This document shows positions 10,512 through 27,663 of a DNA stretch of 32,693 nucleotides, piece by piece. Numbering within the stretch: position 1 is the first letter of the stretch; each line of letters begins with the position of its first letter. The translations under genes and the position numbers were made by a program. The stretch lies in NCBI GenBank assembly GCA_028599115.1, contig JAQRMR010000058.1, forward strand, positions 1 through 32,693, written 5' to 3'. The notes below the pieces were generated by a model, which did not search any database, was not told the origin of the DNA, and saw only the letters and a list, made by a program, of their open reading frames with translations. Source of the stretch: Methyloprofundus sp. (GTDB lineage Bacteria; Pseudomonadota; Gammaproteobacteria; Methylococcales; Methylomonadaceae).

Positions 10512-11030
10512 ATGAACAAAAAAAATATATATTTAATTGGCTTAATGGGCGCGGGTAAAACAACAATTGGCCGGCTATTAGCAAAATCCTTAGGGCTTCC
10601 TTTTTACGATAGTGATAAAGCGATAGAAGACGCTACGGGTGTCGATATTGCAACAATTTTTGAATTTGAAGGAGAGGATGGCTTTCGCCTGCGTGAAAAT
10701 AAAATGATCACAGAATTAACTGATATCGATGGCATTGTTCTGGCAACAGGTGGCGGTGTTATTTTAGATGCAGCAAATCGAAAGCAGCTAAAAGAGCATG
10801 GCTTTGTGGTTTATTTGCAATGTTCAGTAGAGCGATTAGTTGAGCGAACTTCTAGAAATTCACAGCGCCCTTTGCTAAACACAGAAAAGCCGCAGGCTAA
10901 AATTGAAGCCTTGGTTAATGAGCGTGAAGCTCTTTATAAAGAGTGTGCTGATTTTGTCATTGATAGCGGAAAAATGCAGAGTAAAGCAGTTGTTAATGAA
11001 ATTATCAAAGAATACACAGGTGAAGAGTAG
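10512..11030 (+). CDS. aroK: Shikimate kinase
   Basis: NIYLIGLMGAGKTTIGRLLAKSLGLPFYDSD (P-loop), ATGGGVIL, RNSQRPLL; followed by aroB. Confidence 0.96.
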   Translation: MNKKNIYLIGLMGAGKTTIGRLLAKSLGLPFYDSDKAIEDATGVDIATIFEFEGEDGFRLRENKMITELTDIDGIVLATGGGVILDAANRKQLKEHGFVVYLQCSVERLVERTSRNSQRPLLNTEKPQAKIEALVNEREALYKECADFVIDSGKMQSKAVVNEIIKEYTGEE

Positions 11031-11034
11031 GTAG

Positions 11035-12108
11035 ATGGCGAATGTAATGCAGGTAGAGCTGGGGGATAGAAGTTACCCTATATATATAGGCGCGGGTAAT
11101 TTAGATAAATCCGAGTTATTAACTCGACATATTAAATCAAAGCAAGTTGTTGTTGTCACAAATGAAACAGTAGCACCGCTGTATTTAGAGCGAGTGAGCC
11201 GACATTTACAGGACTATCAAGTAGAGACAATTGTTTTGTCTGATGGTGAGCAGTTTAAAACATTAGAGACATTAAATATCATTTTTGATGCATTATTAGC
11301 CAAAAAATTCAGCCGTAATGCGACTCTAATTGCTTTAGGAGGTGGGGTTGTTGGTGACTTAAGTGGTTTTGCCGCTGCCTGTTATCAGCGTGGAATTCCT
11401 TTTATACAAATACCAACAACACTATTGTCTCAAGTTGACTCTTCTGTAGGGGGAAAAACAGGTGTTAATCACGCATTAGGTAAAAATATGTTGGGCGCTT
11501 TTTACCAGCCTCAAAGTGTTATTATTGACGTTGATGTTCTGGATACCTTAGATGATAGGCAGCTAGCTGCCGGGGTTGCTGAAGTTATTAAGTACGGCTT
11601 AATTCGAGACGCTAGTTTTTTCTTATGGATAGAGAGCAATATAGAAAAGATTATGGCGCGAGATAAAATGGCGCTGACGTATATTATTGAGCAATCTTGC
11701 CAAAGCAAGGCTGAAATTGTTGCTTCTGATGAGCGTGAATCGGGTATTAGGGCAATATTAAACTTAGGTCATACATTTGGACATGCTATTGAGGCTGGTA
11801 TGGGTTATGGGGAGTATTTACACGGCGAAGCTGTTGCAATAGGAACCTGCCAAGCGGCTGAATTATCCTGTGAATTAGGTTGGTTAAGTCATACTGATGT
11901 TACTAGGATTAAAACTCTTTTTCAAAATGCAGCTTTGCCAATAAAGGCGCCAAGTAGCTTAAGTGCGGAAACCTTTTTAGAGTTAATGGCTGTCGATAAA
12001 AAGAATGTGGATGGTGATATTCGATTGATTTTACTAAAGGAAATTGGCGAAGCAACTTTGCCCGTCGCGGTAGAGCAAAAGCAATTACTAAAAGTGCTAA
12101 ATAGTTAA
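11035..12108 (+). CDS. aroB: 3-dehydroquinate synthase
   Basis: [58 protein letters not shown] motifs. Confidence 0.97.
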
Positions 12109-12199: not shown

Positions 12200-13615
12200 A
12201 TGAAAAATTTGATCAGTATAGAGCAGAAAAAAAAGTTAGATTTACTGACTCATTTGGTAACAAATATTCAAAGTAGTGTGGTTTTACAAGGCCCTAAAGG
12301 ATCAGGTAAGTCAACTTTGCTGAAGGCTGCTGCAGATAAAGGGCTAGATAATAGCGATATTTTTTTGTTAAATGCGGAGTTAAGTTTAAGCTTTGAGTCA
12401 ATTCAATACGAGTTGCTACAGTTTTTAAACGACAAGTATCAATTGGATAGTCGGGCAATTACGGATGTCTTATTGGATTATGAAAAGCACGAGAAAAAGC
12501 TCGTTTTAATAATAGATGATGCTAATTTATTGCTGACAGGGTTGATTAATGCATTAATTAATTATGCAAAAGAATATAGTGCGCTAAAGCTAGTTTTCTC
12601 CTTAACTCCAGAGGAGGTCTTAGCCAAATCAAAGGCTGAAGGCATAGAGCATAGCTGTCATTTTGTTGACTTGGTGGGCTTGAGTTTCGCGGAGTCCTCT
12701 GTGTTTATTCGGCAACTAATAGCGGCTGGAAACACGAAATACACAGAAAGGGATATTAATGACTCGTTGTTACAAGCTATGTATAAACATAGCGCGGGTA
12801 ATTTAGAAAAAATTAGCTCTCTCCTAAAAGGTGAGCAAAAAAAATATATCACTACGGCCAATATTTTAATTATATTGGCCGTAGTGATAGCGATTGCTTC
12901 TACAGTGTTGAGCCTTTTTTTATGGCGAGACTCAAGTAGTAATAAAGTGATACCAAAGCCACTGCTGGAAAGTAAAAAAAAATTAGCTGTAGATATTATG
13001 CCTAAAAAGCACAAAGAAAAGGCTAATGTAGAAAAGGTGAGGGCTGCAAAGGAATTTACAGTAAAGAGTTTTTCGCATGAAATTTCTCCAGTTGTGAATA
13101 TACCTACTAAACCAGTTATTGAGGTGCCAATTGTTAATAGTCCAAAGACCGAAGTTCCAATTGTGCCGACACCAGAGTTAAGTGTTGCTAATAATCTTGA
13201 GAAGCAAGAGGAAGCAGCAACTTCTAGGGTGGCTAAAAAGCAGGTTGCTGTAAAGATAAGGGATAAGCAAGTAAAAAAAAGGGACTTGCAAGTTAGCGCT
13301 GAGCTTCCTTTAGCTAAAGACATTGATGATCGGGCATGGGTGTTAAGGCAAAAAAAGACTGCTTATTCGATGCAGCTAATGGCGTTATCGTCAAAAAAGT
13401 CGCTATTAGATGCACAAAAGGCATTTAAAAATTTGGGCTACAATACTTATTATTTACAGCATAGCCAAAATAAAAAACATAAGTACACGTTGTATTATGG
13501 TGTATTCGAGTCTATAGAAGAGGCGAATAATAAAGTTATAGAGCTGCCGGCAGCTATGAAAAAAGCATGGGTTAGACGATTTTCAGCGATAAGACAGAAT
13601 TTTTCAATTGAATAG
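12200..13615 (+). CDS. DamX-like protein: AAA/ATPase domain, TM helix, C-terminal SPOR domain
   Basis: Walker A QGPKGSGKSTLLKAA, Walker B KLVLIIDDANLL, TM helix ILIILAVVIAIASTVLSLFLW, C-terminal YSMQLMALSSKKSLLDAQKAFKNLGYNTYYLQ...YTLYYGVFESIEEA (SPOR). ATG 12200 with an upstream AGGAAGG-type RBS is preferred over 12176. Canonical position after aroKB. Confidence 0.85.
   Translation: MKNLISIEQKKKLDLLTHLVTNIQSSVVLQGPKGSGKSTLLKAAADKGLDNSDIFLLNAELSLSFESIQYELLQFLNDKYQLDSRAITDVLLDYEKHEKKLVLIIDDANLLLTGLINALINYAKEYSALKLVFSLTPEEVLAKSKAEGIEHSCHFVDLVGLSFAESSVFIRQLIAAGNTKYTERDINDSLLQAMYKHSAGNLEKISSLLKGEQKKYITTANILIILAVVIAIASTVLSLFLWRDSSSNKVIPKPLLESKKKLAVDIMPKKHKEKANVEKVRAAKEFTVKSFSHEISPVVNIPTKPVIEVPIVNSPKTEVPIVPTPELSVANNLEKQEEAATSRVAKKQVAVKIRDKQVKKRDLQVSAELPLAKDIDDRAWVLRQKKTAYSMQLMALSSKKSLLDAQKAFKNLGYNTYYLQHSQNKKHKYTLYYGVFESIEEANNKVIELPAAMKKAWVRRFSAIRQNFSIE
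12847..12889. repeat. Perfect 18-bp inverted repeat inside the damX-like CDS
   Basis: TATCACTACGGCCAATAT (12847-12864) - TTTAATT (12865-12871) - ATATTGGCCGTAGTGATA (12872-12889); the arms are exact reverse complements. Confidence 0.95.
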
Positions 13616-13692: not shown

Positions 13693-14757
13693 ATGAGCGA
13701 GCTAAAAAACGATAGATTTATTCGTGCACTATTAAAGCAACCTGTGGATAAAACACCAGTATGGATGATGCGACAAGCGGGGCGCTACCTTCCTGAATAT
13801 AAAGCGACAAGGGCGGAAGCGGGAAGCTTTATGGATTTATGTACAAATCCTGAGCTAGCATGTGAGGTGACTTTACAGCCTTTAGAAAGGTTCGATTTTG
13901 ATGCGGCTATTTTATTTTCTGATATTTTAACAATTCCAGATGCGATGGGTTTAGGCCTGTACTTTAGCGAAGGTGAAGGGCCTAAATTTAAGTCCCCTAT
14001 TCGTACCGCAGCAGATATTGATAAGCTATTTATCCCGGATCCTGAGCAAGAATTAAAATACGTAATGGATGCGGTACGCCTAATTAGAAAAAACCTTCAA
14101 GGTCAAGTGCCATTGATAGGTTTTTCAGGGAGTCCGTGGACATTAGCAACCTATATGGTTGAGGGAAGTAGCAGTAAAACATTCTCAAAGGTAAAAGGCC
14201 TGATGTTTGAGCAACCAAAACTAATGCATAAGATGTTGGATAAGTTGGCTCAGTCAGTTGCTATGTATTTAAATGCTCAAATTGCAGCAGGTGCTCAAAC
14301 TGTCATGCTGTTTGATACTTGGGGTGGAGCCTTAGGAACAGAAGAGTATTTGGAATTTTCATTGCGTTACGCCGAGCAAGTTAGGGCACTATTACAAACT
14401 AATGTAAATGGCCAAGAAGTGCCTACCGTTTTATTTACAAAAGGTGGTGGCCAATGGCTAGAGTCAATGGCAGGTGCTGGCTATGATGCACTTGGCTTGG
14501 ATTGGCAGACAGATATTAAATTGGCAAGAGCAAAAGTTGGGGAGCGTGTGGCTCTTCAAGGTAATATGGATCCAATTACACTTTACGCTAACCCAGAAGT
14601 GATTAGGGAAAAAGTAGCCAGCATACTGAGTAAGTATGGCGCAGGCTCAGGACATGTTTTTAACTTAGGGCATGGCATACTGCCGGATATTAACCCAGAT
14701 CATGTAAAAGTAATGGTCGATGCGGTGCATGATTTCAGTGGTCAGTATCATAAATAA
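13693..14757 (+). CDS. hemE: Uroporphyrinogen decarboxylase
   Basis: [56 protein letters not shown] motifs. Confidence 0.97.
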
Positions 14758-27237: not shown

Positions 27238-27615
27238 ATGAGTAATATACAAAAATTAATGATAGCTGTTGTTGGGGTTTTTATTACTGGCTTTTTATTG
27301 GTTGGCTCTAATAAAGAAGAGTCAAATGAGTTCAAAGCGAATGCTGCAATGGTTCGAGCAGTCGCGGCTATGCAAACAATGGCTAACCAGAAGTGTCCGG
27401 CTGCCGTAAAAAAAGCAACTGGCGATGTGGTTTATTTTGCGACAGATACAGATACGGATAAAGAAACTTATGTTTCATTAACTTGGGATGCATCGAAGAC
27501 TCAAGATAAATATAGTTTCAAAAAAGCAAAATGTACTTTACACCTAACATTGGGTGGTATTTCTAAGTTAGTGATTGATGGAAAAACAGTGATTGAAAAA
27601 GAAGTGAAGTACTAA
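27238..27615 (+). CDS. Hypothetical small exported/anchored protein with two cysteines
   Basis: MSNIQKLMIAVVGVFITGFLLVGSN N-terminal hydrophobic segment; preceded by GAGGAGAAAGA RBS and followed by a strong terminator; no family recognised. Confidence 0.8.
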   Translation: MSNIQKLMIAVVGVFITGFLLVGSNKEESNEFKANAAMVRAVAAMQTMANQKCPAAVKKATGDVVYFATDTDTDKETYVSLTWDASKTQDKYSFKKAKCTLHLTLGGISKLVIDGKTVIEKEVKY

Positions 27616-27627
27616 TAAGTGCTACTT

Positions 27628-27663
27628 TAAAGCAGGTGAAGAATTTATTCTTCACCTGCTTTA
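27628..27663. terminator. 16-bp perfect stem hairpin, probable terminator
   Basis: TAAAGCAGGTGAAGAA-TTTA-TTCTTCACCTGCTTTA. Confidence 0.75.

Follow-up and report, generated by a model that had tools for sequence, protein, structure and literature searches.

Within a 32,693-nucleotide stretch of a draft Methyloprofundus genome (the window), a long perfect palindrome lies inside a damX-like gene, at the point where the encoded protein is about to enter the membrane. This raises the question of how such a repeat came to lie within a coding sequence, and whether the hairpin that it specifies does any work there.

A perfect inverted repeat at the domain junction of a damX-like gene

The gene that carries the repeat and its immediate neighbours are as follows.

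10512-11030: aroK, upstream of the damX-like gene (name from the original prediction and our reading of the open reading frame)
11035-12108: aroB, upstream of the damX-like gene (named on the same basis)
12200..13615, plus strand: damX-like gene encoding an AAA ATPase domain, a membrane helix and a SPOR domain (open reading frame and Pfam)
13693-14757: hemE, downstream of the damX-like gene (named as for aroK)

The reading frame of the damX-like gene is intact, with the better start at ATG 12200 and the end at 13615. Pfam matches place an AAA ATPase domain at residues 24-138 of the product (AAA_22, 1.5e-8) and a C-terminal SPOR domain at residues 386-460 (4.4e-9). Taken with the aroK-aroB neighbourhood, these domains fit an identification of the product as DamX.

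An inverted-repeat scan of the window recovered the palindrome at exactly the coordinates first proposed, as two arms that are exact reverse complements over 18/18 bp and are separated by 7 nt.

12847..12864, plus strand: left arm, TATCACTACGGCCAATAT, the likely derived, overwritten copy, unusually diverged from relatives in this genome alone
12865..12871, plus strand: spacer and loop, TTTAATT, 7 nt
12872..12889, plus strand: right arm, ATATTGGCCGTAGTGATA, reading ILAVVI in frame, the likely template, with a divergence from relatives that is not unusual

The left-arm codons read ITTANI, and the spacer contributes a Leu codon (TTA, 12866-12868) that is present in most relatives too. Read in frame, the whole repeat gives KKYITTANILIILAVVIAIASTV, where by visual inspection a hydrophobic helix starts; the arms begin at the boundary between the ATPase part and this helix. 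The original placement of the repeat, wholly within the coding sequence and where the membrane helix begins, is thus confirmed.

The predicted structure is as stable as had been supposed. Folded in isolation as RNA, the hairpin has a predicted energy of -28.0 kcal/mol (z -8.6); it still stands out in a 141-nt context (z -6.0), and as DNA it is predicted to reach -18.6 kcal/mol. The genome search proposed alongside the original prediction found no match to the 18-mer, with up to 2 mismatches, beyond the two arms themselves. The palindrome does not belong to a REP-type family, as it occupies a single genomic site and the REP-like element of this genome is a different sequence. That element is palindromic, with GGAACGCAGGTCTTTAGCCTGC and its reverse complement set 12 nt apart, and is present in about 40 copies on many contigs, some of them at contig ends (examples at C3:15629-15684 and C107:11060-11115).

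The uniqueness of the arm bears on one of the functions suggested for the repeat, a binding site for a dimeric regulator. Perfect dyad symmetry is what such a site would display, but an arm with no second genomic site at up to 2 mismatches, buried deep inside a coding sequence, makes this reading extremely unlikely. Arms of 18 bp also exceed typical regulator half-sites. A regulator site predicts conservation or recurrence, and we found neither, in the orthologues described below or in the genome.

Repeats of this length exceed chance in coding DNA

We compared the perfect inverted repeats of the genome, at spacers of 3-60, with those in three replicates of synonymous-codon shuffles, using 1.84 Mb of the genome (about 80%) and the open reading frames of at least 120 aa within it (1,473,540 bases). 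At arm lengths of 8, 11, 12, 13 and 14 bp, the observed counts were 1236, 27, 6, 2 and 1, which the shuffled counts of 1010, 16, 4, 2 and 0 broadly match. At 15 bp the shuffles averaged 0.33, and none of the three replicates contained an arm of 16 bp or longer. Above 14 bp the coding set holds just two perfect repeats, the 18-bp repeat in damX and a 23-bp repeat near the start of another open reading frame. Since the shuffles produced no arm of at least 16 bp, the damX repeat is real, unusual and beyond chance, and the original view that it was too long to be accidental stands.

Across the collected 80% or so of the genome, perfect repeats of at least 14 bp numbered 81 in intergenic DNA and 8 in open frames; several of the latter belong to a repetitive, REP-like element or fall in short, doubtful frames. 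An intergenic excess of long perfect repeats is expected from terminators and repeats. An intergenic case within the window lies at 27628-27663, where perfect inverted arms of 17 bp flank a 2-nt spacer just past an open reading frame that ends at 27615; it is probably a terminator.

The 23-bp repeat (L147:2229-2277, minus strand, G000:C104) has a 3-nt spacer and lies at the start of an open reading frame for a PAS-GGDEF-EAL protein, for which a relative 81% identical is available. Compared with two relatives, its right arm matches at 16/23 and 20/23 positions and its left arm at 13/23 and 12/23, and the relatives are themselves partly complementary there (12/23 pairs). This pattern is suggestive of a quasi-palindrome that may have been homogenised, but only suggestive, because the two relatives also differ from each other in the left-arm region (13/23). 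The 23-bp repeat may instead be a terminator for the upstream gene.

The hairpin is absent from same-genus orthologues

Nine same-genus genomes have an orthologue that spans the junction, and eight of these align closely. Several genus members, some of them nearly complete genomes, yielded no damX orthologue; the N-terminal part of the gene was unmatched in 7 of 18. The nearest orthologues are 59-61% identical in the N-terminal domain, so the ancestral state is read here from distant proteins. In 7 of the 8 closely aligned orthologues, the stretch from a Lys/Arg pair to where the helix ends (SLFLW) is as long as in this gene; the exception, L005, is 3 residues shorter across the junction, and the ninth orthologue, L012, has a two-residue insertion. 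The near-gapless alignment indicates that sequence was replaced at this site and not inserted. The L005 gene (G016:C122:15391-16802) carries an in-frame TGA at residue 30 and falls into two frames, being either a pseudogene or an assembly error.

None of the nine orthologues has a comparable hairpin, the longest perfect arms within 160 nt being 4-8 bp. The 18 pairs would form at just 1-5 positions in the eight aligned relatives, which are distant ones, and the orthologues display neither the conservation of the stem nor the covariation that mark a structured mRNA. An alignment of this kind had been named beforehand as the means of refuting a functional hairpin, and it reveals no palindrome and no covariation, though among relatives at 59-61% identity and not among carriers of the same protein. 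The absence of the hairpin in relatives makes it look like the scar of a single copying error and not like a working control element.

The same comparison weighs on the proposal that the hairpin is a selected element of the plus-strand mRNA, slowing the ribosome at the start of the helix or separating aroKB-damX from hemE through RNase III-type processing. A hairpin of -28 kcal/mol placed exactly at the junction, ahead of the helix, is what one would look for, but the hairpin is absent in 9/9 same-genus orthologues that keep the same junction and helix, and Rfam matches at the site were all sub-threshold, with none at the gathering score. We therefore consider a selected mRNA element quite unlikely. 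Both the translational pause and the internal RNA processing site, as originally suggested, predict conservation of the hairpin, and the orthologues offer none. With neither conservation among orthologues nor recurrence in the genome, the functional readings are left unsupported.

Colinearity with the orthologues also speaks to the possibility that the repeat is a fold-back artefact of library preparation or assembly. The genome is a draft in 121 contigs, which leaves room for such errors, but the open reading frame is open, colinear with the orthologues on both sides and of their length. In addition, a fold-back chimera would normally run on as reverse complement and would not rejoin the gene after 18 nt. 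This explanation, raised in the original prediction, is in our judgement very unlikely.

Divergence and codon usage point to different arms

If one arm was copied from the other, the overwritten arm should be the more diverged. In the left arm, 6/18 and 8/18 positions agree with the two nearest relatives, which puts it at percentiles 1.7 and 4.3 of 18-nt windows across the aligned region. Averaged over all pairs, its mean deviation from the gene-wide identity is -0.189 in this genome, compared with -0.014 to -0.108 in eight other genus members, and one left-arm site holds Asn in 7/8 relatives and Thr here. The mean deviation of the right arm, -0.080, falls inside the range of the eight other genus members. 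Left-arm divergence that is specific to this genome favours the left arm as the overwritten copy. Codon usage points the other way, as the codons of the right arm are the rarer ones, near the 2nd percentile of gene windows, and those of the left arm are ordinary, and on that evidence the right arm may instead be the derived one. We lean toward a right arm that was copied as its reverse complement over the left-arm site; with the two kinds of evidence opposed, the direction is a lean and not a result.

A terminator-like shape on the minus strand

The original prediction had set simple termination aside because no T tract follows the stem. This is true of the plus strand, where GCGATTGC follows position 12889, but wrong for the minus strand, where a T tract comes directly after the hairpin.

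12837..12846, minus strand: T tract, TATTTTTTTT, immediately downstream of the hairpin as read on that strand; AAAAAAAATA on the plus strand, as Lys codons

On the minus strand the site thus has the shape of an intrinsic terminator, with a stem of 18 pairs (7 of them G-C) and a loop of 7 followed by TATTTTTTTT. A stem-loop and T tract that satisfy the usual description of a terminator may end an antisense transcript, if there is any, and the shape could reflect a terminator of antisense transcription through damX, selected or accidental. There is, however, no minus-strand gene nearby, as between 5425 and 16211 the likely genes are all on the plus strand, and the minus strand downstream has one weak promoter-like match, from a promoter scan that did no better than chance. 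The T tract is the complement of a run of Lys codons ahead of the helix, and A-rich Lys/Arg codons occur likewise in relatives that have no hairpin; the terminator shape is on this account probably incidental. The hairpin, moreover, is not conserved in the relatives. We regard an antisense terminator as unlikely, if less so than the other functional readings; the minus-strand hairpin might stop antisense transcripts, and nothing points to selection for that.

A fold-back template switch as the probable origin

A fold-back template switch leaves just such a trace: an exact reverse-complement copy close by, in a gene whose length is unchanged. Such switches are recognised by a nearby segment that repeats its neighbour, as reverse complement, almost perfectly; here the agreement is 18/18 with a spacer of 7. 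As a counterpoint, an ancestral quasi-palindrome is not visible in the available relatives, which are too distant to represent the immediate ancestor. On the sequence comparisons above, we think it likely that the palindrome records a template switch, made over a short range by a strand that folded back while the DNA was being replicated.

In such an event, the nascent strand bearing one arm would have folded back on itself and been extended by about 18 nt, copied either from its own sequence or from the opposite strand, before resuming its proper template. The site of one arm (probably the left) would thereby have become the exact reverse complement of the other, with a 7-nt turn between them. 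The new codons, ITTANI, would have been tolerable at the loosely constrained junction of the ATPase domain and the membrane helix; with length kept and these residues tolerated, the reading frame would have survived. The earlier suggestion of a recent inverted duplication comes close to this reading, differing in that sequence was replaced and not added.

As for the hairpin itself, it is probably neutral or carries a slight cost. A species-specific role, in which a hairpin made by template switching has since been kept as an antisense terminator or mRNA hairpin that limits antisense transcription or tunes DamX insertion, seems to us decidedly improbable.

Comparison with known template-switch mutations

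Template-switch mutation is established in Escherichia coli, at the thyA hotspot and with lacZ reporters, where it perfects imperfect palindromes (PMC7202029). The damX case resembles that quasipalindrome mutation in the outcome, a perfect inverted repeat in a coding gene attributable to short-range fold-back copying, but it is known by its end state only, with no ancestral quasipalindrome in the available relatives. In coding genes of Saccharomyces cerevisiae, template switches that change neighbouring amino acids at once have been inferred (PMC8604942). As there, homogenised arms in damX would change adjacent amino acids in a coding gene without adaptive need; the yeast cases were polarised by strains and parental nodes, whereas the damX case, in a bacterium, is polarised by distant orthologues.

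Template switches have also been inferred to create hairpin stems of RNA genes in one step (PMC8794818), and the damX repeat is like them in that one event can make a perfect stem. The stems of RNA genes were kept afterwards, whereas the damX stem lies in a coding sequence and is not conserved. Perfect inverted repeats within protein-coding genes have a further parallel in the mitochondrial genes of Nematomorpha, which hold numerous coding palindromes of up to 284 bp, some of them at shared places in four species (PMC6649704); unlike those, the damX repeat is single, 18 bp long and private to one genome.

The damX palindrome is an example of a known process, and a new system is not indicated. 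Its value is that it cleanly illustrates how a single slip in replication may alter about six adjacent codons of a bacterial gene together; ordinary substitution models, faced with such a change, would mistake it for many mutations, independent or selected.
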